In this document: positions 6,085 to 58,192 of the stretch, in pieces
How positions within the stretch are numbered: position 1 is the first letter of the stretch
How the letters are laid out: every line of letters starts with the position of its first letter
NCBI RefSeq assembly: GCF_001522585.2
Contig: NZ_CP013372.1
Location: forward strand, 1,116,001 to 1,180,000
Origin: Burkholderia sp. NRF60-BP8
Lineage (GTDB): Bacteria > Pseudomonadota > Gammaproteobacteria > Burkholderiales > Burkholderiaceae
Direction of reading: 5' to 3'
Length of the DNA: 64,000 bases
Notes under the pieces: generated by a model
Seen by the model: only the letters and a program-made list of their open reading frames with translations
The model's database searches: none
Told to the model about the DNA's origin: nothing
Made by a program: the position numbers and the translations under genes

Positions 6085-6147
6085 GACGAAATCGGCACAG
6101 CGGCCGGCGAGGGCGCGAAGGGCGTTTCGCACTATGCCGATTTCGTC
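6085..6147. promoter_or_regulatory. Candidate operator: perfect 13-bp inverted repeat in the divergent hydroxyproline promoter
   Basis: GACGAAATCGGCA (6085-6097) and its exact reverse complement TGCCGATTTCGTC (6135-6147) lie in the 250-base region between the divergent deaminase and epimerase genes. The centres of the two arms are 50 bases apart, close to five helical turns, so two regulator dimers could bind on the same face. No regulator gene is adjacent to the locus; an AraC-, LysR- or GntR-type factor elsewhere is possible. Confidence 0.6.
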
Positions 6148-6229
6148 GTCGTCCTCATCGAAAAGCCACAAGCGGACGGACGCGCGACGGAGGAAGCTAT
6201 GCTCCTTTCCCCACTTCGGACAGCTCATG

Positions 6230-8286: not shown

Positions 8287-8417
8287 AACGACCCCCACGC
8301 GCACTTCGTTCGCCGTTGGCCGGAGTGGGCGCTTCGGCGCTTACTCCGGTCCCATGCAAGGCGACCCCCACGGAGGCGGTCCGCCTCGTTGGAACGGTCC
8401 GGCGGAGGTTGACATGA
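8283..8417 (+). CDS. Possible 44-residue coupled ORF between dehydrogenase subunits
   Basis: An ATG at 8283 overlaps the stop of the upstream flavoprotein gene as ATGA. The frame runs 44 codons to a TGA at 8415-8417, which overlaps the ATG of the ferredoxin-like gene again as ATGA. It would encode a small basic peptide beginning [11 protein letters not shown]. No similarity is recognised. If translated, it would carry ribosomes across an otherwise 127-base gap and keep the ATGA/GTGA coupling seen at every other junction of this operon. The region is also occupied by a stable hairpin (8320-8349), and a good CGGAGG site serves the next gene directly, so it may simply be spacer. Confidence 0.3.
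   Translation: MKRPPRALRSPLAGVGASALTPVPCKATPTEAVRLVGTVRRRLT
8320..8349 (+). promoter_or_regulatory. Intercistronic stem-loop with UUCG tetraloop
   Basis: The arms 8320-8332 and 8337-8349 pair over 13 base pairs (two of them G-U in RNA) and close on the extra-stable TTCG tetraloop at 8333-8336. A second, shorter dyad (GAGGCGG/CCGCCTC around T8380) follows at 8373-8387. No U-tract follows, so this is not a standard terminator. A role in mRNA stability or in setting subunit ratios within the dehydrogenase operon is plausible. Confidence 0.75.
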
Positions 8418-8647
8418 TCATTCATCTGGACGGCCGCGCGCTGACGGTGGCCGACGGTGCGACCGTCGCGGCCGCCGTCGCGGCGAGCGGCGACGACACG
8501 ACGCGTGTGTCGTGCACGGGCGCGGCGCGAGCGCCGTTTTGCGGGATGGGCATTTGCCAGGAATGCCGGATGACGATCGACGGCCGGCGCCGGCTGGCGT
8601 GCCAGACGCTGTGCCGCGACGGCATGCAGGTGGAGCGCACGCGATGA
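8414..8647 (+). CDS. [2Fe-2S] ferredoxin-like subunit of D-hydroxyproline dehydrogenase
   Basis: The 77-residue protein matches the small HcnA/SoxA-type subunit of heteromeric amino-acid dehydrogenases. The cysteine pattern CTGAARAPFCGMGICQEC followed by a later LACQTLC segment supplies the iron-sulfur ligands. The start at 8414 has a strong CGGAGG Shine-Dalgarno at 8403-8408. Its stop overlaps the start of the next subunit by ATGA (8644-8647), so the two subunits are translationally coupled. Its role is electron transfer between the substrate-oxidising flavoprotein and the NAD/FAD-type subunit. Confidence 0.88.
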   Translation: MIIHLDGRALTVADGATVAAAVAASGDDTTRVSCTGAARAPFCGMGICQECRMTIDGRRRLACQTLCRDGMQVERTR

Positions 8648-9912
8648 AACAGGAACGATTGAGCGTCGACGTCGCGATCGTCGGCGCGGGGCCGGCCGGG
8701 CTGTCGGCCGCGCGGGCCGCCGCGCGCAGCGGCGCGACCGTCGCGATCGTCGACGACAACCCGCGGGCGGGCGGGCAGATCTGGCGGCAGCCGGCCGCGG
8801 CCGCACCGACGCGTGCCGCGGCCGAACGCCTCGCCATCCTGAGGCAGCCGAACGTCACGCATCTCGCGGCGACGCGCATCGTCGCCGAAACGCAGCCGGG
8901 AACGCTGCTGCTCGAGGATGACGAACGCGGGCTGCTGCTCGATTTCCGGACGCTGATTCTCTGCTGCGGCGCCCGCGAGCTGCTGCTGCCGTTCCCGGGC
9001 TGGACGCTGCCCGGCGTGACCGGCGCAGGCGGCTTGCAGGCGCTGATCAAGTACGGGCTCGACGTGCGCGGGCAGCGCACGGTGATCGCGGGCAGCGGGC
9101 CGCTGCTGCTGGCGAGCGCGGCGACGGCCCGGCAGGCCGGCGCACGCGTATCGCACGTGCTCGAACAGGCCGCATGGAGCGACGTGGCCGGCTTCGGCGC
9201 GGGGCTGTGGCGCTGGCCGTCGAAGCTCGCGCAGGCCGCGAAGCTCGTCACGTCGGCGTATCGGCCCGCTGCGCACGTCGTCGAAGCCTTCGGCGACGTG
9301 CGGCTCGAACGCGTGCGGATTCGCCAAGGCGATCGCGAATTCGACGTCGACTGCGACCGGCTCGCGTGCGGCTTCGGCCTCGTGCCGAACACCGTGCTGC
9401 CGCGCCATCTCGGCTGCCAGATCGAGAACGGCGCCGTGGCGGTCGACGCGCATCAGCGTACGAGCCGCGACGGGTATTTCGCGGCGGGCGAATGCACGGG
9501 CGTCGGCGGCAGCGAACTGGCAATGGTCGAAGGCGAAATCGCGGGCTACGCGGCGACCGGGCAGACCGCACAACTGGCCGAGCTCGTCGCACGGCGGGCC
9601 CACTGGCAGGCGTTCGCGGATGCCGTCCGCGAGCGCTTCGCGATCCGGGAGCCGATCCGCCGGCTCGCGCGGCCCGACACGCTGCTGTGTCGTTGCGAGG
9701 ACGTGCGGTTCGACGCGGTCGCACGAGAGCCGGGCTGGACGGCCGCCAAACTGCAGTCGCGTTGCGGGATGGGCGCGTGCCAGGGCCGCGTGTGCGGCGC
9801 GGCCGCGCAGGCACTGTTCGGCTGGGCGCCGCAGGCGCCGCGCACGCCGCTCGTGCCCGCGCGGGTCGGTACGCTGATGCTCGACGGCCCGGGATCCTGC
9901 GACGGCGCATGA
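8644..9912 (+). CDS. NAD(P)/FAD-type and BFD-like [2Fe-2S] subunit of D-hydroxyproline dehydrogenase
   Basis: This 422-residue protein resembles HcnB/SoxA-alpha electron-transfer flavoproteins. It has an N-terminal FAD site (VAIVGAGPAGLSAARAA, about residues 10-26) and a second pyridine-nucleotide-type fold in the middle (RTVIAGSGPLLLASA, about 145-160). A C-terminal bacterioferredoxin-type domain carries the cysteine set CRCEDV and CGMGACQGRVCG (about residues 346-385). It overlaps the ferredoxin-like gene by ATGA and is the last gene of the plus-strand arm. Together the three proteins form the heteromeric dye-linked dehydrogenase rather than an oxidase, which is inferred from the subunit set. 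Confidence 0.88.
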   Translation: MKQERLSVDVAIVGAGPAGLSAARAAARSGATVAIVDDNPRAGGQIWRQPAAAAPTRAAAERLAILRQPNVTHLAATRIVAETQPGTLLLEDDERGLLLDFRTLILCCGARELLLPFPGWTLPGVTGAGGLQALIKYGLDVRGQRTVIAGSGPLLLASAATARQAGARVSHVLEQAAWSDVAGFGAGLWRWPSKLAQAAKLVTSAYRPAAHVVEAFGDVRLERVRIRQGDREFDVDCDRLACGFGLVPNTVLPRHLGCQIENGAVAVDAHQRTSRDGYFAAGECTGVGGSELAMVEGEIAGYAATGQTAQLAELVARRAHWQAFADAVRERFAIREPIRRLARPDTLLCRCEDVRFDAVAREPGWTAAKLQSRCGMGACQGRVCGAAAQALFGWAPQAPRTPLVPARVGTLMLDGPGSCDGA

Positions 9913-9982
9913 CGCGTGCGGGCTTGCGAATACGCGAGTGCGCCGGCCGGACGCGGTACCGAAGCGGCAAGCCGCCGCCATC

Positions 9983-10261
9983 TCATCGGCCGACCGCGTG
10001 TGTGGCGAGGTGCTGGCGGATCAGCGACAGGTAACGATCGCCGACCGAGAAATCGCGGGCCGCGCGCGGCCGGGCCGGAGCCGGCCGCAGCGTGGCCGGC
10101 GCGCTCATGCCCAGATACCGGCACACGGCGGACGGAAAGGGCTTGCGCGTATGCCCGAGCTGACGCGCCGCGCGCTCGACGCGGGCATCGCCGACCTGGG
10201 CACGAAGCCACGCCAGCACTTGGCGATCGGTGTCGTTGACGATACGGACCAGATGTTCCAT
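9983..10261 (-). CDS. Uncharacterised small protein under LexA-type control
   Basis: The 92-residue product beginning MEHLVRIVNDTDRQVLAWL is not recognised. It is predicted soluble, with no signal peptide. The N-terminal half is helical and charged, and a basic RKPFPSAVCRYLG segment sits near residues 39-51. A Pro/Arg/Ala-rich linker precedes a final DRYLSLIRQHLA helix. The start at 10261 is supported by a GAGGTG site just upstream; the longer start at 10273 would run into the operator. A perfect SOS box lies 12-27 bases before the start codon, so the gene is probably derepressed after DNA damage. It lies downstream of, and on the same strand as, the di-haem peroxidase but appears to have its own promoter. 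The function is unknown; a DNA-damage response accessory protein is only a guess. Confidence 0.7.
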   Translation of the reverse strand: MEHLVRIVNDTDRQVLAWLRAQVGDARVERAARQLGHTRKPFPSAVCRYLGMSAPATLRPAPARPRAARDFSVGDRYLSLIRQHLATHAVGR

Positions 10262-10272
10262 CGCGCACCTCA

Positions 10273-10306
10273 CTGTTCATAAATACAGTACTGTAAATAT
10301 AACCAG
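10273..10306 (-). promoter_or_regulatory. LexA (SOS) box plus adjacent degenerate second box
   Basis: CTGTTCATAAATACAG at 10273-10288 is an exact CTGT-N8-ACAG LexA operator, extended on the right by TA as in the long consensus. A second near-match, CTGT-N8-CCAG, occupies 10291-10306, offset by 18 bases. The first box lies immediately upstream of the Shine-Dalgarno of the small minus-strand gene at 10261, where LexA would cover the promoter and transcription start. No gene starts on the plus strand nearby. Confidence 0.85.
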
Positions 10307-10357
10307 TAGTTGCGGTAATCGCAAGCGGTGGCGCGTCGACTGGCCGTTCGGCCAGGG

Positions 10358-11743
10358 TCAGCGCGCCGGTGCGACGGTGCGCGCGATCCGCGCGTCGGGC
10401 GCGGCCGACGCGGCGCGGCCGGTATAGCGCGCGTCAGTCAGCGTGCCGAGGAACGCGACGATGTCGTCGATTTCCGCGTCGGTCAGCGCGGGCGCCGTGC
10501 CGGGCCGGCGGTTCATCGGCGTCGAGTTGACGTTGATGTTGCCGCGATAGGCGGCCGGCACGTCGTCGAACGTCTTGGCGCCGTGATACCAGAAGCCGGG
10601 ATCGGTCGAGCGCGTGTTGTAGAACGCGACCGCGTCGCGCAGCGTCGTGAACACGCCGTTGTGCATGAACGTCTGCTTGACCGCGACGTTGCGCAGCCCG
10701 GGCGTGCGCAGGTAGCCGCACCATTGCGTCGGTTCGGGCCAGCGCAGCCGCCGCGCGGTATCGCACAGCCCGTTGTCGAAATGGCGCGGATCGCGGTTCG
10801 CCGGCAGCGCGCGGTTGCGCGGCACCGCGATCGCGTCGTAGCCGAAATCGGTGAAGAGCGAGCGTTCCGGGCGGCTCGACGTATCCGACAGCGTATGGCA
10901 GGTCATGCAATTGCCCTTGTCCGGATTCCGGAACAGCGCGAGGCCGCGCATCTCGGCCGGCGCGAGCGGCGTGCGCGTGCGCAGGAACGCGTCGAAGCGC
11001 GACGTGAACGGCGCCATCTCGTCGCTCTGCAGATAGGCTTCGACGGCCGAGCCCAGCGCGCGCACCAGTTGCTCGGGATCGCGCCGTACCGGCGCGCCGA
11101 AGCGCGCGGCGAGATCGGGCGCGAGTTCGGTCGCATCGACCTTGCGCAGCAGCGCGGCCGGCGACCGGTTGTTCATCTCGTTCGGATCGAACAGCGGCCC
11201 GCGGATCTGCTCGGCGAGCGTATCCGCGCGACCGTCGCTGAACAGGCCGCCGAACGGCGACGGGGCCGGCGCATCGTCGTCCTGGTAGAAGTGGCGGCGC
11301 GGCACGTAGCGCACGTACAGCAGCGACGGCGCATTGCGTCGGCTGAAGCGCCCGGGCCGGCTGCCTTCCGGCACGCCGGGCCCCGCGAGCGATGCGGCCG
11401 ACAGCGTCGGCGCGAACGCGCGGCCCGGATCGTGGCAGCCCGCGCACGACATGCCGCGCGGCTCGGACAGCCGCGGATCGAAGAAGATCCGGCGGCCGAG
11501 CGCGACGAGCGTCGGGTCGGGCGCGAAGCGGGCGGTGGCCGCGTCGATCTTGCTCGTCACCTGCGGCGTGCCGTTGCCGATCGTGTCGACGACGCGCGAA
11601 GGCGGCGCGCCGGGAAGCAGGACCGTTTCGGCCGGCGCGGCGTGGGCCGCGAGCGTCAGGCCGGCGAGCACGGTCGCGGCAAGCATGTGCAGCGTTTGCC
11701 GGCCGCGCCCGCCGTGGCCGTCGCATCGAACTGCTTCTGTCAC
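10358..11743 (-). CDS. Di-haem cytochrome c peroxidase/MauG-family protein
   Basis: The 461-residue exported c-type cytochrome has two CXXCH haem sites: C100-A-G-C103-H104 and C279-M-T-C282-H283. That is the layout of bacterial cytochrome c peroxidases and MauG relatives, which reduce hydrogen peroxide or oxidise protein side chains in the periplasm. The GTG start at 11743 overlaps the stop of the phosphoesterase gene (GTGA) and gives a basic n-region before the hydrophobic LAATVLAGLTLAAHA segment. The alternative ATG at 11686 would give a signal peptide with almost no n-region. The tight overlap with a phosphoesterase lipoprotein suggests a joint extracytoplasmic role, but no substrate can be named. 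Confidence 0.87.
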   Translation of the reverse strand: MTEAVRCDGHGGRGRQTLHMLAATVLAGLTLAAHAAPAETVLLPGAPPSRVVDTIGNGTPQVTSKIDAATARFAPDPTLVALGRRIFFDPRLSEPRGMSCAGCHDPGRAFAPTLSAASLAGPGVPEGSRPGRFSRRNAPSLLYVRYVPRRHFYQDDDAPAPSPFGGLFSDGRADTLAEQIRGPLFDPNEMNNRSPAALLRKVDATELAPDLAARFGAPVRRDPEQLVRALGSAVEAYLQSDEMAPFTSRFDAFLRTRTPLAPAEMRGLALFRNPDKGNCMTCHTLSDTSSRPERSLFTDFGYDAIAVPRNRALPANRDPRHFDNGLCDTARRLRWPEPTQWCGYLRTPGLRNVAVKQTFMHNGVFTTLRDAVAFYNTRSTDPGFWYHGAKTFDDVPAAYRGNINVNSTPMNRRPGTAPALTDAEIDDIVAFLGTLTDARYTGRAASAAPDARIARTVAPAR

Positions 11744-36204: not shown

Positions 36205-37188
36205 AATAACCGTATCGCCGACGGTCGCGTCAAATTCCGGCACCTGCAGTGTTTCCTCGCGGTCGCCCAACTGGGCGGCGTGCAGAAGGCGGCCGAAAGC
36301 CTGTCGATCACGCAGCCGGCCGTGTCGAAGACGATCGCCGAGCTGGAGGCGATCCTCGGCGTGAAGCTGTTCGAGCGCGGCCGGCACGGCGCACAGCCCA
36401 CCCGCGAAGCGCAACTGTTCATGCCGCACGCGAATGCGTGCGTGCTGGCGCTGCGGCAGGGCGTCGGGCTGCTGGCGCGCGAGGGCGGGGCCGCTGCCGC
36501 GACGCTGGAAATGGGCATGCTGCCGACCGTCGCGGCTTCGCTCGCACCGGCGTTGATGAAGGCGTTGACCGCACGCTGGCCGCGCATCGTCGTGCGGATC
36601 GCGACGGCCGCGAACGCCGAGTTGCTCGAGCGTCTGAAATCCGGGGCGATCGAATGCGCGATCGGCCGGCTGTCGGAGCCGGAGCGGATGATCGGGCTCG
36701 CGTTCGAACAGCTGTACAACGAGCCGCTCGTCGCGGTCGTGCGCGCCGGGCATCCGCTGCTCGCGAGCGCGGCGCCGGCCGCCGAGCTGGCGCGCTACCC
36801 GGTCGTGCTGCCGCCGTTCGGCACGTTGATCCGCCAGTCCGCCGAGCAACTCCTCGGCGCATGCGGCGCGCCGCCGCTGGATTCGTTCATCGAGGTGCTG
36901 TCGGTATCGGTCGCGCGCGCACTGGCGCTCGAGAACGACGCGGTCTGGTTCGTGCCGCTCTATGCAGCCGAATACGATCTGTCGGCCGGCGCGCTGGCGC
37001 GCCTGCCGCTGCCGTCGGCGGGCACCGACGAGCCGGTCGGGCTCGTGCTGCGTACCGATGCGCAGCCGTCGCCGGTCGCGCGGACGCTGATCGATGCGGT
37101 GCGCGACATCGCGCGATCGCGGTTCGGTGCGGCGCGCCCGCACCAGGCGCCGCGCGCGTCGCGCAAGCCCACTCGCGGCAAGCGGTGA
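36202..37188 (+). CDS. pcaQ: LysR-family activator of protocatechuate genes
   Basis: The 328-residue protein has the PcaQ-type N-terminus (GRVKFRHLQCFLAVAQLGGVQKAAESLSITQPAVSKTIAELEAILGVKLFERG), which is the LysR helix-turn-helix (about residues 10-68). An effector-binding domain follows. PcaQ activates pca genes in response to beta-carboxy-cis,cis-muconate. It lies near pcaHG, and both promoters share a matching ATAACC-N4-GTTAT operator. The start codon lies inside the operator. In relatives pcaQ is usually directly divergent from or beside the pca genes; here a 1.6-kb insert separates them. Confidence 0.88.
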   Translation: MNNRIADGRVKFRHLQCFLAVAQLGGVQKAAESLSITQPAVSKTIAELEAILGVKLFERGRHGAQPTREAQLFMPHANACVLALRQGVGLLAREGGAAAATLEMGMLPTVAASLAPALMKALTARWPRIVVRIATAANAELLERLKSGAIECAIGRLSEPERMIGLAFEQLYNEPLVAVVRAGHPLLASAAPAAELARYPVVLPPFGTLIRQSAEQLLGACGAPPLDSFIEVLSVSVARALALENDAVWFVPLYAAEYDLSAGALARLPLPSAGTDEPVGLVLRTDAQPSPVARTLIDAVRDIARSRFGAARPHQAPRASRKPTRGKR

Positions 37189-48003: not shown

Positions 48004-48185
48004 GGGTAAATCGCGGAAGCGGTTGCCGGATGCAGGACGATGACGCGGGACGATGCGATAAAGCACAGAAATGTACGGTTTATAGGCTAAAAATGATGAA
48101 ACCGTGTACCAATCTGGAATGGCGAGCGCGTTTCGTTCACCTATCCCGAACAGTCGGCTCCCCGGCATTGATCTTTTTTTGACAA

Positions 48186-48202
48186 GGTTTTATATTGCAA
48201 CC
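48186..48202 (+). promoter_or_regulatory. HxlR-type operator 3 (half-conserved), GGTTTTATA-TTGCAACC
   Basis: The right arm TTGCAACC equals that of operator 2 and the left arm keeps GGTT and one A, at the same 17-base spacing. It lies 67 bases before the regulator start and would serve autoregulation. Confidence 0.6.
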
Positions 48203-48268
48203 ATTCATTTCAACGAGAACGACCGCCGTTCAGCCCGTATCCCGGGCACGGCATCGCCGTACGCACCG

Positions 48269-48718
48269 ATGAACAGACGCACCACGCACGAAGATTCCCT
48301 TTGCGGTGTCGCCCGCCCGCTGGACGCGATCGGCGACTGGTGGTCGCTGCTGATCGTCCGCGACGCGTTCGACGGGCTGCGCCGCTTCGGCGAATTCCAG
48401 AAGAATCTCGGCCTCGCGAAGAACATCCTGGCTGCCCGCCTGCGCAACCTGGTCGCGCACGGGATCATGGACGTCGTGCCGGCCGCCGACGGCGGCGCGC
48501 ATCACGAATACGTGCTGACCGAAAAAGGACGCGGGCTGTTTCCGCTGCTGGTCGCGCTGCGGCAGTGGGGCGAGGATTTCTTCTTCGAACCGGACGAGGC
48601 GCACGTGCTGTTGGTCGACCGGAAGACCGGGCTGCCGGTCAGGAAGCTGGAGTTGCGTTCTCAGGACGGCCGCGTGCTCGGCCCGGAGGACACGGTCGTG
48701 CTGCCGCCGCCCGACTGA
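48269..48718 (+). CDS. HxlR-family transcriptional regulator
   Basis: The 149-residue protein has the HxlR winged helix with the conserved N-terminal Cys segment (DSLCGVARPLDAIGDWWSLLIVRDAFDGLRRFGEFQKNLGLAKNILAARLRNLVAHGI, about residues 9-66). HxlR regulators sense aldehydes, electrophiles or redox state, often through this Cys. It is divergent from the alpha/beta hydrolase, and three shared palindromes lie between them, so the hydrolase is its probable target. The ATG at 48269 is the last Met before the domain; upstream frame sequence is not conserved-looking. Confidence 0.9.
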   Translation: MNRRTTHEDSLCGVARPLDAIGDWWSLLIVRDAFDGLRRFGEFQKNLGLAKNILAARLRNLVAHGIMDVVPAADGGAHHEYVLTEKGRGLFPLLVALRQWGEDFFFEPDEAHVLLVDRKTGLPVRKLELRSQDGRVLGPEDTVVLPPPD

Positions 48719-48902: not shown

Positions 48903-50318
48903 TCAACTTCGATCGCTCGCCGCGTTGCTTTCGAGGAAACTATCCACCGCGATCAGCGACTGTTCGTCGAGCGTGCCGAGCACGCTTTTCAGCTTCAACT
49001 GCAACTTCAGCGCATCGAGATAGCTGTCGAACAGCTTCTGCCGGATGCCCGAGATGTCGCGCCGCAGGTTCAGCGTTTCGTACGTCGTGCTGTAGCCGAC
49101 CTGATGCGCCTTCATCGACGACTCGTACGCGAGCCGCGCGGCCTGCAGCGACTGCTGCAGCGCGCGAATGCGCTTGCCGGCCGACTCGAGCGCGGCCAAC
49201 GCCTCGCGACGATCGGTGCCCAGTTGTTCCTCGACCTCGCGCAGCCGGTTGCGGTACTGCTCGGTCACGTGCTCGGCCTCGACCTGCCGGTAGTACACGC
49301 TGCCGCCGGAGAAGATCGGAATCGTCACCTGTACGCCGACCGCGCTTTGATGGAAATCCGAGCGATCGGTGAGCCCGCGAAGGTTCGGATTGAGCCCGCG
49401 CGAATACGACGCGAAGAGGTCGACGGTCGGCAAGTGTTCGGCGCTGACACGCTTCGCGGCGAGCCGCGCGACCTGGACGTCGCGATAGGCCTGCCGGTAC
49501 GCGGGATTGTCCTGCGGCGCATAGTCGCCCGACGGAATGCGCGGGGACGACCCGCGCATCGCGAGCCGCGGCCAGCGGGAGAAGTCGATCGCCGAACCGA
49601 GCAACGTCTCGTAACGGGCGCGCCGCGCGTCCACGTCGGTCTGCGCGAGCGCTTCGTCGGATTGCGCGAGGCTGCGACGCGCCTCGATCTCGGCGGTATC
49701 GCCGATCGTCTTCATCCCGAGTTGCGCCATGCGCCGCGTATCGCTCTCGAGTCGCGTGAGCGCGCTGACTTCGTCGTCGGCCGATTGCAGTTTCTCGCGC
49801 GCGCTCAGCAGATCGAAGCATGCATTCGCGACCCGCAGGATCAGGTCCTGCTTCGCGACCTCGAGCTTCTGTTTCGCCGCTTCCTCGTACTCGGTCGCGC
49901 GCCGCATGTCGTACAGGTAGGGCACGTTGAACAGCGCCTGCGTGACCTGCGCGGAACCATATGCCGCGTTGCTCGAGCCGCTGACGTCGATGCCGAACAG
50001 GTTCGCGTGCGTGCCGTAGCGCCCCCACTCGAGCTGCGCGGCAGCCTGCGGCAGCATTTGCGCACGGGCCTCGGGAAATTTCTGGCGGGCCGCATCGTAT
50101 TCGCTGCGGGCCTGCAGGTAGCGCGGATCGTGCACGGACGCGTACTGGTAGGCGGTATCGAGGCAGAACGCACGGGCGTGTGCCGGCAGGCCGATTATCG
50201 TTACAGCGAACAATGTCATGGTTGCAAGCCGGGGATTCCACCTAGTCGAAAATCTTGATAGGGAAATACCCGCATCCGGTGTCGCCGACCCGCGATTCGT
50301 GCGCATCGTTTCAAACAT
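48903..50318 (-). CDS. TolC-family outer-membrane channel protein
   Basis: The 471-residue protein has the two-fold repeat of outer-membrane efflux proteins with long helical segments. An export segment (MTLFAVTIIGLPAHARA, about residues 34-50) follows an unusually long n-region of about 33 residues. The mature start FCLDTAYQYASVHDPRYLQARSEYDAARQKFPEARAQMLPQ is typical for type I secretion TolC homologues. The ATG at 50318 has a CAGGAG site. It is divergent from the two double-glycine peptides and the C39 exporter and HlyD adaptor genes, and so probably supplies their outer-membrane exit duct. Confidence 0.9.
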   Translation of the reverse strand: MFETMRTNRGSATPDAGISLSRFSTRWNPRLATMTLFAVTIIGLPAHARAFCLDTAYQYASVHDPRYLQARSEYDAARQKFPEARAQMLPQAAAQLEWGRYGTHANLFGIDVSGSSNAAYGSAQVTQALFNVPYLYDMRRATEYEEAAKQKLEVAKQDLILRVANACFDLLSAREKLQSADDEVSALTRLESDTRRMAQLGMKTIGDTAEIEARRSLAQSDEALAQTDVDARRARYETLLGSAIDFSRWPRLAMRGSSPRIPSGDYAPQDNPAYRQAYRDVQVARLAAKRVSAEHLPTVDLFASYSRGLNPNLRGLTDRSDFHQSAVGVQVTIPIFSGGSVYYRQVEAEHVTEQYRNRLREVEEQLGTDRREALAALESAGKRIRALQQSLQAARLAYESSMKAHQVGYSTTYETLNLRRDISGIRQKLFDSYLDALKLQLKLKSVLGTLDEQSLIAVDSFLESNAASDRS

Positions 50319-50415
50319 GGCCGTCTCCGTCTCCTGTCCGTGCCGCAATGCATTGCGGCGGGATTTAAACGTATTGAAATTGGAATTCAAACAGCATGAA
50401 TGCCTGATGATCGTC

Positions 50416-50469
50416 GCGCATCGGAAAACACGGCTGTAAGAGTGTGTCCTCCATTGAATTCCGATGCGC
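50416..50469. promoter_or_regulatory. 11-bp inverted repeat in the divergent peptide/TolC promoter
   Basis: GCGCATCGGAA (50416-50426) and TTCCGATGCGC (50459-50469) are exact reverse complements 32 bases apart. They sit in the AT-richer 278-base region between the TolC gene and peptide 1, so they may form a shared operator. Confidence 0.6.
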
Positions 50470-50596
50470 CCGCATGATAGCCTGATTTCGGCTGGTAATC
50501 GCAGTGATTATTGAATTAACGAGTCGCTCGGGATTAAAAGCCGTTTGTATTTTAATGAAGGTTCTTTGCATCGTCTTTATTTTTTACGAGGAGAGA

Positions 50597-50773
50597 ATGA
50601 TGAAGGTCATGACGACGGAACAGGTCAGGAATGTGCATGGCGGCGGTGCGATCAGCTCGCTGGGTAGCCTCGCCGTCGACGCTGCGCCGGTGGTGACCGC
50701 GCTCGGCCAGTTCCTGCCGAGCCTCGGCAATTACCTGCAGAACCCGAAGACGTTCAATAACACCGGCAAGTAA
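50597..50773 (+). CDS. Double-glycine-leader peptide 1 (bacteriocin/microcin-like precursor)
   Basis: The precursor is 58 residues. The leader MMKVMTTEQVRNVHGG (1-16) ends in a GG site with hydrophobic V at -4 and -7, as in class II bacteriocin leaders. The 42-residue core is hydrophobic and small-residue rich, without Cys, and ends NNTGK. The start at 50597 has a GAGGAGAG site at 50588-50595; a longer frame from 50504 lacks one. The C39-peptidase exporter that would cleave after GG is encoded downstream. The core has no resemblance to a named bacteriocin that I recognise. It might be an antimicrobial, a signal peptide or one of a two-peptide pair. Confidence 0.8.
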   Translation: MMKVMTTEQVRNVHGGGAISSLGSLAVDAAPVVTALGQFLPSLGNYLQNPKTFNNTGK

Positions 50774-50780
50774 CCGCCGT

Positions 50781-50803
50781 GCGCGGGGAGGCGCCCCCCG
50801 CGT
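50781..50803 (+). promoter_or_regulatory. GC hairpin between peptide 1 and peptide 2
   Basis: CGCGGGG (50782-50788) pairs with CCCCGCG (50796-50802), extended by a G-U pair, just past the peptide 1 stop. There is no T-tract; it may act as an attenuator or stabiliser so that the peptide is made in excess over the exporter. Confidence 0.6.
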
Positions 50804-50997
50804 CAGATGCTGCGAAACAGAAGGACAAGAATCGATCGCCGCAGTGGAAGTAAGGAGACTTCGAAATGCATTATTTCGAAATCGGGCGATTATCGGAAGA
50901 CTGGGGTGCCGGATTATCACGTAATAGAGTGAACGGCCATTTGGCTTGCGATTGGCTGACGGCTGTTGGCATTCCGACAATATAAAGGCCACAACAA

Positions 50998-51183
50998 ATG
51001 CGAGACATCACGGAAGAACAGGCCCGCCAGATTCGCGGCGGCGCGTCGCTTTACTCCAATTCGGCCGCCTATACGGTCGATCTCGTCAATCAGTCGATCG
51101 GGACCACGCTGCAGGGCCTGATGGCCCAGTACCAGGCCCACGCCGTCGAACAGTTCCGGATGTCGCTCGGCTCGTCGCACTGA
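50998..51183 (+). CDS. Double-glycine-leader peptide 2
   Basis: The precursor is 61 residues. The leader MRDITEEQARQIRGG (1-15) shares the pattern T-x-EQ-x-R-x-(V/I)-(H/R)-GG with peptide 1 and has I at -4. The 46-residue core (starting ASLYSNSAAYTVDL) is amphipathic, Gln-rich and Cys-free, ending SLGSSH. The ribosome site is weak (AAAGG). It lies 143 bases before the exporter gene. The two cores are unlike each other, which fits a two-component system. No GxxxG helix-pairing motif typical of class IIb bacteriocins is present. Confidence 0.8.
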   Translation: MRDITEEQARQIRGGASLYSNSAAYTVDLVNQSIGTTLQGLMAQYQAHAVEQFRMSLGSSH

Positions 51184-51325
51184 GCGGCCCGCCGAGCGGC
51201 CGGCAACACCGATCTTCCGTCGCAGCCGGACGCGCCGGCTGCGTTCATGCGTATCGCGCACGACCCGTCGCGGGCCTGCACCGGCTGGCCCGGGCGGCGC
51301 GTCGTCGCGCCCCGGGTGCCCGACC

Positions 51326-53446
51326 ATGCTCTTCAATACGCGTAAAGTCCGTCCGGTCCTGCAGGACGAAGTGACGGAGTGCGGCCTGGCCTGCCTCGCG
51401 ATGATCGCGTCATGGCACGGGCGCGACACGACGCTGCGTACGCTGCGCAACCGCTATCCGGTGCGGATCGACTCCGGCCTGTCGTTTTTCGACCTGATGG
51501 AGATCTCGAACGATCTCGGCCTGCGCGCACGCGGGCTGCAGTTCGATGCGGGCGAGCTCGACGCGCTCAAGACGCCGTGCATCCTGCACTGGGGGATGAA
51601 CCACTATGTCGTGCTGACGAAGGTCGGCTACGGCAGCGTGCACATCGTCGACCCCGCGCTCGGCGAGATGAAGCTGCCGCTCGCGCAGGCGCTCACGCAC
51701 ATCACCGGCTATGCGCTCGAACTGAATCCGGACATCGGTTTCACGCGGGCCGGGCAGGCCGACCGGATCCGGCTGCGCGACTACCTCGAAGGACTGACCG
51801 GCATCCGCAAGAGCCTCGCGATCGGCATCGCGGGCGGCGTCGCCGCGCAGCTCCTGCTGCTGCTCGGCCCGTCGTACGTACAACTGACGATCGACGAAGC
51901 GCTGAAGAAGACCGACGTCGACATCCTGTACCTGCTGACGATCCTGTTCGCGATCGTGTTCCTGTTCGACACGCTCTACGCGAACCTCGTCGGCAACATC
52001 AAGAGCTACCTGCGCAACATCGTGTCGCAGCAGTTGTCGGCGAACATGGTCGGCCATCTCGCGCGGCTGCCGATCGGCTATTTCCTGTTTCACAACACCG
52101 GCGATTCGATCTCGCGCGTGTCGTCGGTGTCGGAGGTCGGGCGGTTTCTCGTCGACGGGCTGATCGGCGGGCTGCTGAACATCGTCACCTGCACGCTGAC
52201 ACTCGTGCTGATGCTGTATTACAGCCCCGTGCTGGCCGGTATCAGCCTCGCCGGGATGGTGCTGTTCGCGTTGAGCCGGCTCGCGATCCAGCCGCAACTG
52301 CAGGACGCGATGTCGCAGATCCTCACGCGCGGCGCCGAGGCCGATGCGCTGCTGATCGAGAACATCCGGTCCGCGCATTCGATCAAGCTGCTGTCGGCCG
52401 AGACCGCGCGCAGCAGCCTGTGGGTCAACGCGTTCACGCAGAAACTGCAGGCGATGCGCCAGCAGGAGCGGCTGCAACTGCTGTTCGATGCGATCTCGAA
52501 GGGAATCGTGCACGTCGAGCAACTCGTGATCGTCACGTACGGCGCGTGGCTCGTGATGCACGGGCAAAGCACGATCGGCGTGATCTACGCGTTCATCCAG
52601 TACAAGAACCTGTTCGCGGACAAGTTCACCGATGCGATCCAGCTCTACGTGCGCCGCAAGGTGCTGCAGGTGCACATGGATCGCGTCGCGGACGTGTTGC
52701 AGACCGAAACCGAGGAACCCGCGCCGGATGCGGTCGTGCGGCCGGTCGACGGGTTCGACGGCGCGCTGTCGATCCGTGCGCTGTCGTACACGCCGAAGGG
52801 CGGCCGTCGCCCGATCCTGAGCGCTGTCGCACTCGACGTGCCGGCCGGCGGCAAGATCGCGATCGTCGGCCGTACCGGTAGTGGCAAGACGACGCTGCTG
52901 AACCTGATCTGCGGGCTCGTGCGGCCCGAGCCCGGCACGCTGTTTGTCGGCGGCGTCGATCTCGCGGAAGTGAACCTGCGGCAATACCGCAAGCATCTCG
53001 CCGCCGTCACGCAGTCCGACCAGTTGTTTCGCGGGACGATCCGCGACAACATCACGAACTTCGCGCCCGCGCCGCGGATCGGCGCGATGTACGACGCGGC
53101 GAAGCTCGCGTGCATCCACGACGAGATCGAGCGGCTCGACCATCGCTATGACACGCCGCTCGGCGATACGCAGAAATTCCTGTCGGCCGGCCAGATGCAG
53201 CGGTTGCTGATCGCGCGGGCGCTGTATTGCGAGCCGCGCCTGCTGATCCTCGACGAATTTTCGTCGAATCTCGACCAGGCGACCACGCACGAGATCTGCC
53301 GCAACGTGCTGACGCTGCCGTGCACGATCGTGCTCGTCACGCACGATGCGTCGATCCTGTCGATGGTCGACCGGGTCTACCGGATGCACGAGGGCGTCCT
53401 GACCGACGCGACGGACGCATGGCGCGCGAGCGAGGAGGTGCGGTGA
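51326..53446 (+). CDS. Peptidase-containing ABC transporter (C39 leader peptidase/exporter)
   Basis: The 706-residue protein processes and exports GG-leader peptides. The N-terminal C39 cysteine peptidase has Q13, C19 (TECGLACLAMIASWHG), H93 (WGMNHYVVL) and D109 (IVDPALG). Six membrane segments follow (about residues 160-430). The ATPase has Walker A GRTGSGKTT (about 515-523), signature LSAGQ (about 618-622; LSGGQ is usual) and Walker B LLILDEFSS. It resembles CvaB-type exporters that cooperate with HlyD and TolC proteins, both encoded here. Its TGA overlaps the next start as TGATG. Confidence 0.95.
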   Translation: MLFNTRKVRPVLQDEVTECGLACLAMIASWHGRDTTLRTLRNRYPVRIDSGLSFFDLMEISNDLGLRARGLQFDAGELDALKTPCILHWGMNHYVVLTKVGYGSVHIVDPALGEMKLPLAQALTHITGYALELNPDIGFTRAGQADRIRLRDYLEGLTGIRKSLAIGIAGGVAAQLLLLLGPSYVQLTIDEALKKTDVDILYLLTILFAIVFLFDTLYANLVGNIKSYLRNIVSQQLSANMVGHLARLPIGYFLFHNTGDSISRVSSVSEVGRFLVDGLIGGLLNIVTCTLTLVLMLYYSPVLAGISLAGMVLFALSRLAIQPQLQDAMSQILTRGAEADALLIENIRSAHSIKLLSAETARSSLWVNAFTQKLQAMRQQERLQLLFDAISKGIVHVEQLVIVTYGAWLVMHGQSTIGVIYAFIQYKNLFADKFTDAIQLYVRRKVLQVHMDRVADVLQTETEEPAPDAVVRPVDGFDGALSIRALSYTPKGGRRPILSAVALDVPAGGKIAIVGRTGSGKTTLLNLICGLVRPEPGTLFVGGVDLAEVNLRQYRKHLAAVTQSDQLFRGTIRDNITNFAPAPRIGAMYDAAKLACIHDEIERLDHRYDTPLGDTQKFLSAGQMQRLLIARALYCEPRLLILDEFSSNLDQATTHEICRNVLTLPCTIVLVTHDASILSMVDRVYRMHEGVLTDATDAWRASEEVR

Positions 53447-54447
53447 TGCTCGGGCGACTCTTCCTGCTCAATCCGTTCTCGTATGCGTTCCTGGTGCGTC
53501 GCGCGGTGCGCTCCGTCGCGCTGCGCACGTCGCCTGCGCGCGGGCTGCGACTGATGCGCTGGTGCTCGGGCGCGTGCCTGCGCTGCTTTCCGTGCATTCG
53601 CGAGTCGATCGAACGCGCGGTCGCTTACATGCTGGGCGCGCACCTGAACGACGATCCGCGGCGCGTGCGGGAAGTGTCGACCGCGATCGTGCGCGAGTTG
53701 TTCGAGGCCGAATTCGCGGGGCTCAAGCTGCGCACGCACAGCCTCGAATCGATGAAGACGATGATCGACGGGATGGCGTGCGAAGGCGACGACCAGTTGC
53801 GCGCGGCACTCGCACGCGGCGGCCCGCTGATGCTCGCGGGGCTGCATTTCGGTAACCTGATGCTGTTCGTCACGAAGCTGCGCTTCATGATTCCCGACGA
53901 CCGCAAGCTGATGGTGATCCTGCACCGGGATGCGCCTGGCGCGTTCTTCGACGATGCGCTGCGGCTCGTCGCCGAGTACGGCGCCGGCGAAGTCGAATTC
54001 ATCGACATCGAGGAGCGCGTGCACCTGCGGCGGTTGATCGCGAGCCTGCGGCGCGAGGCGCCGGTGTTCCTGCTGTTTTCCGACCTGCACGGCAAATTCG
54101 GCAAGACCAATCGCTGCCGGCTCGGCGGGCGCTGGGTGCGGATGGCCGGCGGCGGCGTGAAGCTCGCGGTCGAGCAGGGCATTCCGCTGCTCGTCGCGTA
54201 TGCGACCGGCGTGCCGTTCCGCGATCGCTGCGCGGTGCATTTCACCGAGCTCGCGGCCAGCCCGCTCGTGCCGATGCTGGGTAGCGACGACGACGCGTCG
54301 CCCGTGCGCGCGACGCACCAGCGCATCGTCGACCGTCTCGATCAGGCGCTCGTGCGCCAGCCCGAGCAATGGCACTTCTGGGAACACTTCACGCCTTACC
54401 TGATGCCGACGCCGCTGCTCGATGCGGCCCCGCGGCGTCGCGCCTGA
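53446..54447 (+). CDS. LpxL/HtrB-like (LABLAT fold) acyltransferase relative lacking the catalytic acid
   Basis: The 333-residue protein looks like the lipid A late acyltransferase family: LMLAGLHFGN (about 128-137) for motif I and FLLFSDLHGKFGKTNRCRLGGRWVRMAGGGVKLAVEQGIPLL for the later motifs. The family active site is H-x4-D/E; here H134 is kept but residue 139 is Met (HFGNLM). No signal peptide is seen; the N-terminal 30 residues are moderately hydrophobic. It overlaps the exporter stop (TGATG) with GAGGAGG upstream, so it is tightly coupled to peptide export. It may acylate a peptide, alter a lipid for self-protection, or only bind acyl chains. No precedent is known to me in a microcin cluster. 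Confidence 0.7.
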   Translation: MLGRLFLLNPFSYAFLVRRAVRSVALRTSPARGLRLMRWCSGACLRCFPCIRESIERAVAYMLGAHLNDDPRRVREVSTAIVRELFEAEFAGLKLRTHSLESMKTMIDGMACEGDDQLRAALARGGPLMLAGLHFGNLMLFVTKLRFMIPDDRKLMVILHRDAPGAFFDDALRLVAEYGAGEVEFIDIEERVHLRRLIASLRREAPVFLLFSDLHGKFGKTNRCRLGGRWVRMAGGGVKLAVEQGIPLLVAYATGVPFRDRCAVHFTELAASPLVPMLGSDDDASPVRATHQRIVDRLDQALVRQPEQWHFWEHFTPYLMPTPLLDAAPRRRA

Positions 54448-54459
54448 CGAGCCCGCCCC

Positions 54460-55755
54460 ATGCCGACCTGGAATTCCGCCCTCCGAGAACAGAAGCCGTC
54501 GCGCAAGCTCGCGCGCGGCACGACCTTCGGCACCGTGATTCACGGCGTCGTCGACGTGCCGGTGTCGATGCGGTTCTTCTGCTACCTGTCGCTGACGATG
54601 TTCGCGATGTTCGTGACCGCGCTCGTCGAACTGAGCTATGCGAATACCGAAAGCGTGTCGGGGATGCTGACGCCGCGCTCGGGGCTGATCGGCGTCGGTG
54701 CGCCGCCGGGGTGGGCGGTACGCGACGTCTACGTCGGCAAGGACCAGCACGTGAAAGCCGGCCAGCGGCTGCTCGCGGTGACGCGCGACACGAGCTTCGT
54801 CAGCCAGGCGAACAACGTGCAGGGAATGCGCGCGGCGCTCGACCGGCAGCGCGTCGAGGTGGCGCAGCAGATCGATGCGGCACGGCTCGAATACCGGTCG
54901 TCGGTGCAGCAGATCAATCAGCAGATCGCCGCGCAGGGCGAGAGCCGCGGGCTGATCGACCGGCAGATCCAGGACCAGAAGCGCATCGTCGACGAGTACG
55001 GCGAACGGCGCGCGCGCGTGAAGCAGTTGCTCGACGAACAGGTCGTGACGCTCGAACAGTACAACCAGGTCAACACGCAATACCTGCAGGCCGGGCAGGC
55101 GTACCAGGACTTGCTGCTGCGCCGGGCCGAACTCGCGAAGAACGCGATGAAGCTGCGCGGCGATCTCGACACGATGCAGAGCAAGTACGACGGCGCGAAC
55201 GCGGAACTGAAGATCAAGCAGGAGGAGCTCAACGCGAAGGAATACAACATCGACGAGAACGTGAACCAGGTGCTGTACGCGCCGGCTGACGGGCAGATCG
55301 TGCGGCTCGACGTCGTGCAGGGCGGTGTGATCGACCCGCCCGGCACGCGCGTCGTCGAGATCCTGCCAGCGAAGGCCGACGGGTTGATTGCCGAGGTCTA
55401 CATTCCGTCGTCGAAGGCCGGCTTCGTGAAGAAGGGCCAGGAGGTGAAGGTTGCGTACGCAAGCTATCCGGTAGAGAAATTCGGCACGTATCGCGGCAAG
55501 GTGTTGTCGATCTCGCCGGTCGCGTTCTCGGCGAAGGAGCTGAACCTGCCCGGCGATGCGGCCGTGCCGCAGACCTACTTCAAGACCTGGGTCGAACTCG
55601 CCGACCGCACGCCGTCGTTCGACGGCCGGCCGTTGTCGCTGCGGGCCGGGATGATGCTGAAGGCGGACATCGTGCTCGAGCGGCGCAGCCTGCTCGAATG
55701 GCTGTTCGAGCCGTTGTACCGGATCCGGCAGCGCCTGTTCGGCGTGCCGGCCTGA
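54460..55755 (+). CDS. HlyD-family periplasmic adaptor protein
   Basis: The 431-residue membrane fusion protein has one N-terminal membrane segment (FFCYLSLTMFAMFVTALVEL, about residues 39-58). A lipoyl/beta-barrel part and a long coiled coil (about residues 120-275, Gln/Lys/Glu-rich) follow, then the second lipoyl half (VLYAPADGQIVRLDVVQGGVIDPPGTRVVEILP). This is the CvaA/HlyD layout that bridges an ABC exporter to TolC. It follows the acyltransferase-like gene by 12 bases. Confidence 0.92.
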   Translation: MPTWNSALREQKPSRKLARGTTFGTVIHGVVDVPVSMRFFCYLSLTMFAMFVTALVELSYANTESVSGMLTPRSGLIGVGAPPGWAVRDVYVGKDQHVKAGQRLLAVTRDTSFVSQANNVQGMRAALDRQRVEVAQQIDAARLEYRSSVQQINQQIAAQGESRGLIDRQIQDQKRIVDEYGERRARVKQLLDEQVVTLEQYNQVNTQYLQAGQAYQDLLLRRAELAKNAMKLRGDLDTMQSKYDGANAELKIKQEELNAKEYNIDENVNQVLYAPADGQIVRLDVVQGGVIDPPGTRVVEILPAKADGLIAEVYIPSSKAGFVKKGQEVKVAYASYPVEKFGTYRGKVLSISPVAFSAKELNLPGDAAVPQTYFKTWVELADRTPSFDGRPLSLRAGMMLKADIVLERRSLLEWLFEPLYRIRQRLFGVPA

Positions 55756-55759
55756 GTCG

Positions 55760-57154
55760 ATGGCGAATCGCGACATCCGCCGCCGCCGCGCGCGGCCGGG
55801 CACCGTGCGTCCGCTGTCGCGCTGGCTCGGCGCGACGCTGTTCGCCTGCGCGGCGGCCGCGCAGGCCGCGCCGCCGCCCGACGGCGACGCCGCACCGCGC
55901 TGGCAGGCCGGCGCCGACGGGATCGGCTTCTGGCCGGGTGGCGATGCGGACGGCTTCGACGCGCGCGCTTGGACGACCGATCCCGGGCCGGCGCGCGGCG
56001 GACGCAACGAAGCTTCGGTCGACGGACGGCAAGCGAATACCATCCCGCTGACCGCCCGCAAGATCACGCTCGGGCAGCGAACCGGCGAAGCAGGGCGCGC
56101 CTGCGCGGCCGCAGGCGGCGAGGGCGCGGACGGCATCGGCTTCGACGAGGGCCGTGCCGGCGGCGGTTGCGATCCGGCCGCCACGCCCGATGTGCCGGCG
56201 GACGACGCAGCGGCGCGCGGCGTCGTCCACGCCGACCGGATGCCGTACGAACTGCATCCGGTCGATCCGTCGCGGCTGCCCGATCTGCCGGCCGCGCAGG
56301 CGCCGCCTTTGCTCGAGCAACTGATGGGCGACGACCGCAACATGGTCGGCCTCGGCTGGCACTTCGTCGGTACGACCGGCCGCTCGACGCCCGTGACGAC
56401 GCGCACCGACGCGCTCGGCCTGAACAGTTTCCAGAACGCGGGTTCGAGCCTGTCGCTCAGCAATACGAACACGCTGGCGTTCACGTTCACGCATTTTGTC
56501 TCGGAGCACTGGGCGGCCGAACTTGGCGCGGGCATTCCGCCGGTGCTGACGCTGCGCGGGCACGGCAGCATCGCGTTGCCGCTCGACCGCATCTTTGCCG
56601 GCGTCCACGGGCGCTTTCCGCTGATCGATCTCGGGAACACCCAAAGCAACCCGCTCGCGACCACGCGGGCCTGGCTCGGCTCGGTCGTGTTCAAGTACTA
56701 CCTCGGCGAGCGCGACGACCGTTTTCGCCCGTTCGCGGGCCTCGGCGTCAGCTACACGCGCTTCACGAACACGAACCTGAACCCCGTGTTCCAGCGCAAG
56801 CTCGCGTCGCTCGGCGGGCTGCTCGCGGCCGGCGCGGACATCGGCAGCCTGCAGTCGCTGCTGCTCGATCCGGCGTTGTTCCAGCGGATCTGGGATGCCG
56901 GCGGCGACCTGCTGCTGTCGGGGCGGACCAATGTGTCGGCGAAGGTGAAGAGCGTGTGGGAGCCGGTGTTCACCGTTGGCGCGAGCTACCAGATCACGCG
57001 CCGGTTCTGGGTCACCGGGATGGTGACCTACATCCCGCTGCGCACCAGGATCACGCTCGACATCAGCCAGCCGAACCGTACGCTTGCATCGAATACGTTC
57101 GATATTTCGGCGAACCCGGTGCTGGCCACCGTACTGCTGAACTTCCGCTTCTGA
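55760..57154 (+). CDS. OmpW-like outer-membrane barrel with long low-complexity N-terminus
   Basis: The 464-residue protein starts with a basic n-region and signal peptide ending AAAAQA (about residue 36). Some 150 residues of Gly/Ala/Asp-rich disordered sequence follow, then about 270 residues of beta-barrel pattern resembling OmpW/AlkL (MVGLGWHFVGT, FTFTHFVSEHWAAELGAGIPP, GVSYTRFTNTNL, terminal VLLNFRF with last Phe). The extra N-terminus is not usual for OmpW, which is about 210 residues. It starts 4 bases after the HlyD stop, so it belongs to the secretion operon. It could be a receptor, an immunity-type channel or an accessory pore. Confidence 0.75.
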   Translation: MANRDIRRRRARPGTVRPLSRWLGATLFACAAAAQAAPPPDGDAAPRWQAGADGIGFWPGGDADGFDARAWTTDPGPARGGRNEASVDGRQANTIPLTARKITLGQRTGEAGRACAAAGGEGADGIGFDEGRAGGGCDPAATPDVPADDAAARGVVHADRMPYELHPVDPSRLPDLPAAQAPPLLEQLMGDDRNMVGLGWHFVGTTGRSTPVTTRTDALGLNSFQNAGSSLSLSNTNTLAFTFTHFVSEHWAAELGAGIPPVLTLRGHGSIALPLDRIFAGVHGRFPLIDLGNTQSNPLATTRAWLGSVVFKYYLGERDDRFRPFAGLGVSYTRFTNTNLNPVFQRKLASLGGLLAAGADIGSLQSLLLDPALFQRIWDAGGDLLLSGRTNVSAKVKSVWEPVFTVGASYQITRRFWVTGMVTYIPLRTRITLDISQPNRTLASNTFDISANPVLATVLLNFRF

Positions 57155-57241
57155 CGGCGTAGCCGGCCATTTTCATGAATTTGACGCGCGACGCTGGGAT
57201 AATGGTCGAGTTTGGCCGCGTCAATGATGGAAGGAGGCCCC

Positions 57242-58192
57242 ATGGGCGACAACGATACCCGCACCGAGACCGACAACCGCACCGATACGCGCTCGATGGA
57301 GGCGCGCCAGCGCCGTTTCGAGGAGGATCTCGTCGATGCCTACGACGAAGAGCTCGAGATGGAACTCGACGACCGCCGTTTCGACAATGGTGAGGACCTG
57401 CTGTTCTCGCCCGAGCGTCGCGAGGCGCGCAAGGAGTATTTCCGCGAGCTGTTCCGCCTGCAGGGCGAGCTCGTGAAGCTGCAGGACTGGGTCGTGCATA
57501 CCGGGCACCGGCTCGTCGTCATTTTCGAAGGGCGCGATGCGGCCGGCAAGGGCGGTGCAATCAAGCGCATCACGCAGCGCCTGAACCCGCGCGTGTGCCG
57601 GGTCGCTGCGCTGCCGGCGCCGAACAACCGCGAGCGCACGCAATGGTATTTCCAGCGCTATGTCGCGCATCTGCCGGCCGGCGGCGAGATCGTGCTGTTC
57701 GACCGCAGCTGGTACAACCGCGCGGGTGTCGAGCGCGTGATGAATTTCTGTACCGACGACGAGTACGAGGAGTTTTTCCGCTCGGTGCCCGAGTTCGAGA
57801 AGATGCTCGTGCGCAGCGGGATCCAGATCGTCAAGTACTGGTTCTCGATTACCGACCACGAGCAGGAACTGCGCTTCCAGAGCCGGATCGAGGATCCGCT
57901 GAAGCAATGGAAGCTGAGCCCGATGGACCTCGAAAGCCGCCGCCGCTGGGAGGCTTATACGGCCGCGAAGGAAGAGATGCTGCAACGCACGCATATTCCG
58001 GAGGCGCCGTGGTGGGTCGTGCAGGCCGTCGACAAGAAGCGCGCGCGGCTGAACTGCATTCACCATCTGCTCGGCCAGGTGCCGTATCACGAGGTGCCGC
58101 GCCCGACGATCGATCTGCCGCAGCGCGAGCATCACGAGGATTACATTCGTCGGCCGGTGCCCGACAGCATGATCGTGCCGGAGATTTATTGA
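57242..58192 (+). CDS. ppk2: Polyphosphate kinase 2
   Basis: The 316-residue PPK2 family enzyme transfers phosphate between polyphosphate and nucleotides. Walker A GRDAAGKGG (about residues 97-105) and the catalytic/lid region FDRSWYNRAGVERVMNF (about 153-169) are diagnostic of one-domain PPK2. The N-terminal 40 residues are acidic. The ATG at 57242 has AAGGAGG at 57231-57237; starts at 57212 and 57224 lie in or before that site. A strong terminator follows at 58227. Confidence 0.93.
   Translation: MGDNDTRTETDNRTDTRSMEARQRRFEEDLVDAYDEELEMELDDRRFDNGEDLLFSPERREARKEYFRELFRLQGELVKLQDWVVHTGHRLVVIFEGRDAAGKGGAIKRITQRLNPRVCRVAALPAPNNRERTQWYFQRYVAHLPAGGEIVLFDRSWYNRAGVERVMNFCTDDEYEEFFRSVPEFEKMLVRSGIQIVKYWFSITDHEQELRFQSRIEDPLKQWKLSPMDLESRRRWEAYTAAKEEMLQRTHIPEAPWWVVQAVDKKRARLNCIHHLLGQVPYHEVPRPTIDLPQREHHEDYIRRPVPDSMIVPEIY

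Follow-up and report, generated by a model that had tools for sequence, protein, structure and literature searches.

A predicted two-peptide double-glycine export locus of Burkholderia that includes acyltransferase-like and OmpW-like genes

The 7.08-Mb genome of Burkholderia sp. NRF60-BP8 (G000) carries, within the 64,000-nucleotide stretch of contig NZ_CP013372.1 analyzed here (the window, C1:1116001-1180000, whose coordinates are used throughout), a seven-gene locus at 48903-57154 that is predicted to process and export two small double-glycine (GG) peptides, here called PepA and PepB. An initial annotation had described a two-peptide GG export locus with its own TolC, C39 exporter, HlyD, acyltransferase-like, and OmpW-like genes; that description is confirmed at these coordinates, where all seven open reading frames (ORFs) are uninterrupted. 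The comparative data support the seven genes as a single co-inherited set, with the acyltransferase-like (LPLAT) and OmpW-like genes as genuine members. Our favored interpretation, held tentatively, is that the locus encodes a genus-level system for peptide secretion that is passed on vertically and works at the surface of the producing cell, possibly with lipidation. The features of the locus are as follows.

48903..50390, minus strand: tolC-like outer-membrane channel gene, divergent from the operon (OEP domain PF02321, Pfam 9.5e-51; TIGR01844 2.2e-56, under its cut-off); adjoins pepA in 19/19 related loci
50473..50501, plus strand: 29-bp conserved element upstream of pepA, with an inner dyad AGCC-N7-GGCT
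50597..50773, plus strand: pepA, 58-aa double-glycine precursor; predicted core of 42 aa, monoisotopic mass 4230.23 unmodified; in 19/19 loci
50782..50802, plus strand: stem-loop just 3' of the pepA stop codon; in 20/20 sequences, with no T-run
50998..51183, plus strand: pepB, 61-aa double-glycine precursor; predicted core of 46 aa, monoisotopic mass 4944.38 unmodified; in 19/19 loci
51326..53446, plus strand: C39 peptidase-containing ABC exporter (PCAT), 706 aa; Pfam domains, with catalytic and ATPase motifs in 20/20
53446..54447, plus strand: LPLAT, a distant relative of PF03279/PatA-like acyltransferases, 333 aa; H134 and D213 invariant, M139 at the HX4D/E acid
54460..55755, plus strand: HlyD-family periplasmic adaptor, 431 aa (TIGR01843 1.7e-37, under its cut-off; HlyD_3 1e-17)
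55760..57154, plus strand: OmpW-like barrel, 464 aa, with a long N-terminal extension (PF03922 3.1e-09; solved OmpW/AlkL/OprG relatives)
55868..56329, plus strand: barrel N-terminal extension, residues ~37-190, with variable linkers around two DGIGF motifs (from alignments)
56801..56887, plus strand: PepA-like segment in the insert of the barrel's predicted extracellular loop 3, residues ~348-376 (profile-profile comparisons; suggestive)
57212-58192: polyphosphate kinase 2 (PPK2) gene, flanking the barrel downstream

The start codon of the tolC-like gene (TTG, giving a 495-aa form) is uncertain, and the first base of the LPLAT gene is the last base of the exporter stop codon.

Nineteen related loci were gathered by one scan for LPLAT relatives. 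Eighteen of them carry all seven genes in an unchanged order; in the exception (L030) the contig ends inside hlyD, and in L028 tolC is cut by a contig end. Because these loci had been chosen via LPLAT, the association was also tested in the reverse direction in 50 Burkholderia genomes, made up of G000, 24 same-genus genomes, and the same-genus genomes listed from a family-wide draw (28 with LPLAT, including G000, and 20 without, the LPLAT-negative genomes being a sample of the draw's negatives). An exporter of at least 88% identity was found in 29/50, as was PepA; a full-length barrel occurs in 29/50 (three of them as two pieces in one frame) and LPLAT in these same 29 genomes, and ordinary OmpW relatives are present in 50/50. 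In 29/29 the pepA, exporter, LPLAT, and barrel genes lie on one contig within about 7 kb, as judged by eye from their coordinates. The other 21 genomes hold exporters of at most 35% identity (17 genomes) or none at E 1e-60 (4 genomes). Conservation of the acyltransferase-like and OmpW-like genes with the exporter, which the initial annotation had proposed to check by neighborhood search, is borne out by this linked co-occurrence and by the gene order of the 18 loci. In one genome (G761:C2:632517-633523) LPLAT is split into two frames; pepA, the exporter, and the barrel match there at full length.

This distribution also bears on the idea that LPLAT and the barrel are housekeeping envelope genes that merely share an operon with the peptide genes and are unrelated to them. 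In favor of this idea, one PF03279 member and two OmpW relatives of the ordinary kind are encoded elsewhere in the genome, but the four-gene association in the same 29 genomes speaks against it, as does the family-wide draw, in which LPLAT relatives at E 1e-6 occur in 28/398 genomes, all of genus Burkholderia (top five candidates per genome scored). We consider a housekeeping origin very improbable.

The locus appears to be vertically inherited and to have been lost in some species. The PPK2 flank is common to 17/19 loci; it is missing in the locus of Paraburkholderia acidicola (L027), which has all seven genes with no adjoining PPK2, and L030 meets a contig end. Pairwise distances between the proteins track those of the PPK2 neighbor (Spearman 0.86-0.89, 17-18 loci). 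Three of the 21 locus-free genomes (G603, G609, and G001; stretches L094, L095, and L096) retain a barrel fragment beside PPK2, which shows that the locus was lost there, as opposed to having arrived late elsewhere. A mobile bacteriocin island was accordingly rejected, given the shared flank, the remnants at the same place, and the distances that follow the flank. The locus was seen in the B. cepacia complex and in other Burkholderia species; annotations of OmpW-like homologs extend to the B. pseudomallei group. By LPLAT, the closest named locus is that of B. cenocepacia (97%), and in one record of a plasmid collection (H1) the region is without annotation. An order-wide draw, likewise with the top five candidates per genome scored, returned LPLAT in 1/399 genomes, namely G000. 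The next exporters outside are at most 36% identical in 299 phylum genomes and about 35% identical in plasmids.

The export machinery supports a dedicated and complete type I export locus for GG peptides. The exporter matches Peptidase_C39 (1e-27), ABC_membrane (1.1e-26), and ABC_tran (6.6e-29) in Pfam, and its best solved relatives are a bacteriocin-type ABC transporter (4ry2), HlyB, and ComA. The catalytic residues named in the initial annotation (Q13, C19, H93, and D109) are conserved in 20/20 exporters (that of the window and 19 others), together with Walker A/B, the signature, and the H-loop, and the HlyD adaptor and divergent TolC described alongside them are likewise recovered. The exporter, TolC, and HlyD each score under the curated cut-off of the NCBIfam model that they match best. 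A role in anti-phage defense was rejected; only the exporter matched, to two models, and this was read as generic ATPase similarity.

Both precursors fit the GG-leader pattern. Their leaders align with each other, with M/I at -12, V/A at -7, V/I at -4, and GG at -2/-1, in keeping with the matching leaders and the cores of 42 and 46 residues first proposed; a third G in pepA means that its cut could be shifted by one residue. Both frames were found in 19/19 related loci. This conservation and an excess of synonymous differences in most pairs led us to reject chance or artifactual peptides (substitution counts omit TolC for L021 and L028, where impossible values arose as frame artifacts). The PepA precursor is identical to that of the window in 12/19 loci; the pepA genes there differ by 2-5 synonymous changes and by none that is nonsynonymous, and exporter pN in the same 12 loci is 0.011-0.019. 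In these alignments PepA is invariant among close species, alignable at full length across the genus, and overall not slower to change than the exporter. Its most conserved part is the C-terminal G.YLQ(N/D)PK..N..GK. A database search with the PepA alignment returned 6 protein clusters, which suggests that pepA is often unannotated; one LPLAT cluster alone holds 537 sequences.

The main rival interpretation is a two-peptide class II microcin-like bacteriocin acting against relatives that lack the locus, with self-immunity provided by the barrel (through receptor masking) or by LPLAT (through a change in envelope lipid). The class II microcin machinery (PMC9746304) recognized by the initial annotation is present in its components (GG precursors, C39 exporter, HlyD, and TolC), and several other observations are compatible with this view: the Cdz system also exports two proteins (PMC5380434), 21/50 congeners are without the set, PepA has a weak match to Bacteriocin_IIc (E 0.03, under cut-off), and PepA outpaces the exporter at larger distance. 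The further step from machinery to microcin finds less agreement. As the initial annotation had observed, no immunity gene is obvious: in the gap from tolC to the exporter, the only ORFs of at least 20 aa conserved into seven divergent loci (blastp E 1e-3, 80% length) are the peptides and short frames overlapping pepA, although a large atypical immunity gene or a distant one is conceivable. A third peptide or small immunity gene in this gap was rejected for want of a conserved ORF. The invariance of PepA among close species and the vertical, not island-like, inheritance of the locus also tell against a microcin, as do the lack of a glycine zipper in either core (0 GxxxG in PepA and PepB, versus 12 in one GG peptide of the genome's second locus) and the separate glycine-zipper GG-peptide locus itself. 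Core peptides of class II microcins are highly variable, and on this point PepA goes both ways, being identical in 12/19 loci but more divergent than the exporter in the most distant ones. The microcin interpretation is weakened and is less likely than not. The locus appears unlike a typical bacterial toxin locus, and a surface or signaling role for the whole lineage would be expected of it, not that of a strain-specific diffusible toxin.

Conservation of PepA across close species would also fit a peptide that is secreted, perhaps after modification, as a signal received by other cells or by a host. C39 exporters have been proposed for signals elsewhere: in the RaxABC/RaxST model of Xanthomonas, the operon of a C39 ABC exporter and its adaptor also encodes a modifying enzyme, and the system secretes a leader-peptide substrate (PMC4216712); for HetC, likewise a PCAT, export of a signaling peptide has been proposed (PMC10986499). 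LPLAT would here take the place of RaxST. The conserved set, however, is without a receptor or regulator gene, and a signal leaves the barrel unexplained; we regard this interpretation as unlikely.

The preferred interpretation, a peptide-secretion system at the producer's own surface, gives both additional genes a part to play. LPLAT was first described as a lipid A acyltransferase relative, an assignment that stands at the level of a distant superfamily and not more closely, its PF03279 score being 15.7 bits against a cut-off of 22.3. The NCBIfam model for the mycobacterial PIM-acyltransferase gives 1.9e-08 and 33.7 bits against a cut-off of 209, and a sequence search found no solved relative. 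H134 and D213 are invariant and M139 occupies the position of the HX4D/E acid in 9/9 and in 19/19 aligned sequences (one of 20 having been dropped by the length filter; the motif and distance comparisons of the exporter and LPLAT, like the profile comparisons below, used proteins within a length range). The missing acid does not imply a dead enzyme, because related enzymes retain activity without it. In PatA the partner of the histidine is E200, from another block (H126-E200), and the D131A variant retains 37% activity (PMC4792965); VexE has a tyrosine at this position and is active, serving the glycolipid anchor of the Vi antigen, a polysaccharide whose exporter is an ABC system (PMC9597891). 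Classification of LPLAT as a pseudoenzyme, for which the absence of the acid from all compared sequences might argue, was therefore rejected as unsafe.

The operon ends in the OmpW-like barrel, as first annotated, and PF03922 is above its cut-off (37.5 bits vs 24, 3.1e-09). The barrel is the fastest-changing large protein of the locus (pN 0.033-0.097 in the 11 close loci having it). Where the solved OmpW chain has about 10 residues, it has an insert of about 52 profile positions, which by OmpW topology we take to be extracellular loop 3; by the same topology the N-terminal extension is presumably periplasmic. The N-terminal linker of the B. stagnalis barrel (L023, 10315-11910) is expanded by a TQA-type amino-acid repeat.

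A segment of loop 3 resembles mature PepA, a likeness that the profile comparisons render suggestive. The insert scores 18.85 against the profile of mature PepA, a value reached by 1/150 column shuffles in one run (highest 18.88) and by 0/600 in another; with a wider sequence set the score is 18.18, and 2/600 shuffles are as high. The reversed insert scores 10.86. When PepA was compared with 207 windows of nine locus and neighbor proteins, the top five all overlapped the loop 3 insert (19.44 to 13.47), and the best elsewhere was 11.25. For PepB, the top score against other locus proteins was 16.0, on TolC; this likeness was taken as noise.

Under the preferred interpretation, the C39 domain would cut both leaders, and PCAT-HlyD-TolC would carry the resulting peptides of 42 and 46 residues out of the cell in a single step; the anatomy of the exporter makes this a safe proposal. 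With less assurance, LPLAT could acylate either the peptides themselves or a glycolipid of the envelope that serves as their acceptor, much as VexE acts for the Vi antigen anchor. Most conjecturally, the barrel might be the surface partner of the peptides, seeding, holding, or sensing them on the producer's own surface, a suggestion made because loop 3 carries the segment resembling mature PepA. In curli, CsgB nucleates CsgA, and this provides a model for barrel-seeded assembly of PepA. A specific form of the proposal, which we think improbable, is that the barrel displays a built-in PepA-like segment and that exported, lipid-modified PepA (with PepB) docks on or polymerizes from loop 3 in a lineage-specific surface assembly.

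Several observations weigh against this interpretation. The likeness of PepA and loop 3 was spotted by eye before testing; both segments are rich in L, G, S, and A; and the highest of the 600 shuffles (18.84) comes very close to the real score (18.85). Single-sequence tests are weak in 6/7 loci (31-226/500 shuffles as high; 2/500 in L027), unrelated pairs in the same test (pepB-HlyD, in L024 and L026) reach 6-7/500, and cognate pairs of PepA and loop are not the best-scoring. The invariance of PepA is short-range, because a gene of this small length evolving at the exporter rate would be expected to gather no more than about 1.4-2.5 changes; the 12 loci with identical PepA are, moreover, related. 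At distance PepA outpaces the exporter: it is 57-59% identical in L024 and L026, where the PCAT is 87% identical, and 77-79% identical in L027 and L028, with exporter identity at 87-89% across these four loci. Profile and multiple alignments of LPLAT to the genome's own LpxL are unreliable, so that the H134-D213 dyad is putative and LPLAT might be inactive, and the sole structure model of LPLAT is poor (mean pLDDT 55.7), too poor for use. Finally, the 50-genome co-occurrence covers pepA, exporter, LPLAT, and barrel; tolC, hlyD, and pepB are present in three further stretches inspected (L097-L099).

Two noncoding features accompany pepA. The upstream 29-bp element is near-invariant across an alignment of 20 sequences (10 of them displayed) and has a single site in the genome at up to 3 mismatches; it is probably an operator or promoter, and membership in a regulon was rejected given the one genome site. 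In the GC-rich stem-loop, L027 shows a paired change from G-C to A-U when read ungapped by eye, at a place where MAFFT introduces a gap, and its folding energy is by itself unremarkable (z -0.99). An intrinsic terminator was rejected, as no T-run follows; the stem-loop may instead be a stabilizer or attenuator that raises pepA over the downstream genes. Rfam at gathering threshold gave no match within the window.

Beyond tolC lies a gene for an HxlR-family regulator (48104-48718), which is matched in 3/19 loci (L015, L017, and L021) and beside the remnant in L094; because it is matched in so few loci, we regard it as a neighbor of the locus and not a member. Elsewhere in the window, ARAGORN reports an unusually long tRNA-Gly (gcc) of 95 nt at 36979-37073.

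The genome contains a second GG-peptide export locus (L093, G000:C2:38000-52000), in which positions 5719-11344 encode TolC, HlyD, a PCAT, and two GG precursors, one of them the peptide with 12 GxxxG. A search of this stretch gave no relative of LPLAT or of the barrel; the second locus is presumably of the usual microcin/Cdz kind (CvaC/Cdz-type), and the PepA/PepB locus looks different in kind. Cdz-like systems are mentioned in B. cepacia, with no locus detail in the available part of the source (PMC5380434); the second locus fits this mention better than the PepA/PepB locus does. The accessible text of a 2026 review of Burkholderia secretion systems covers hemolysin/RTX-type cargo of type I secretion systems and contains no C39 peptide exporter (PMC13391677). 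Among titles and abstract openings of the open-access literature, as distinct from subscription papers, we found no paper describing the PepA/PepB locus, and within that scope this agrees with the earlier remark that the acyltransferase-like and barrel genes are not known from any named system.

Gram-negative GG peptides are mostly thought of as microcins. The PepA/PepB locus is a candidate for another use, because its peptides are invariant among close species, it is vertical with losses, and it has two dedicated extra genes. Should the peptides prove to be the substrate of LPLAT, the enzyme would be a member of the LpxL superfamily that lipidates a ribosomal peptide destined for secretion; binding of PepA by the barrel loop, if it occurs, would represent a mechanism of surface assembly or self-recognition that is directly testable.

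Comparison with known systems reveals partial likeness to each. Class II microcins (MccV/CvaAB-TolC type) share the GG-leader precursors, C39 ABC exporter, HlyD-type adaptor, and TolC-type exit; the present locus, known from sequence alone, differs in its own linked tolC, its two extra conserved genes, its lack of a recognizable immunity gene, and a peptide invariant among close species. Cdz of Caulobacter (CdzABCDI), a contact-dependent bacteriocin, likewise exports two small proteins by means of a type I system and has a possible surface association, whereas here there are no glycine zippers, no small transmembrane immunity gene (CdzI) in the gaps, and an additional LPLAT and barrel; the cdz cluster is described, in the part of the report available, as having no TolC gene (PMC5380434), unlike the locus here. 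RaxSTAB/RaxABC of Xanthomonas combines a modifying enzyme, C39 exporter, and adaptor in one lineage-conserved operon with a proposed leader-peptide substrate, an arrangement that the present locus would match if LPLAT, as a candidate, modifies the peptides, but the Rax enzyme is a sulfotransferase and not an acyltransferase, and the available portion of that account mentions no barrel gene (PMC4216712). The LPLAT enzymes of VexE, PatA, and LpxL type are related to the LPLAT here by distant sequence relation, the conserved histidine, and an HX4D/E acid altered as in VexE; the present LPLAT falls below curated cut-offs and lies beside a peptide exporter and not a polysaccharide exporter. OmpW/AlkL/OprG barrels share the OmpW domain, to which the barrel of this locus adds an N-terminal extension of ~150 residues that contains two DGIGF motifs and, in loop 3, an insert of ~50 residues resembling PepA.

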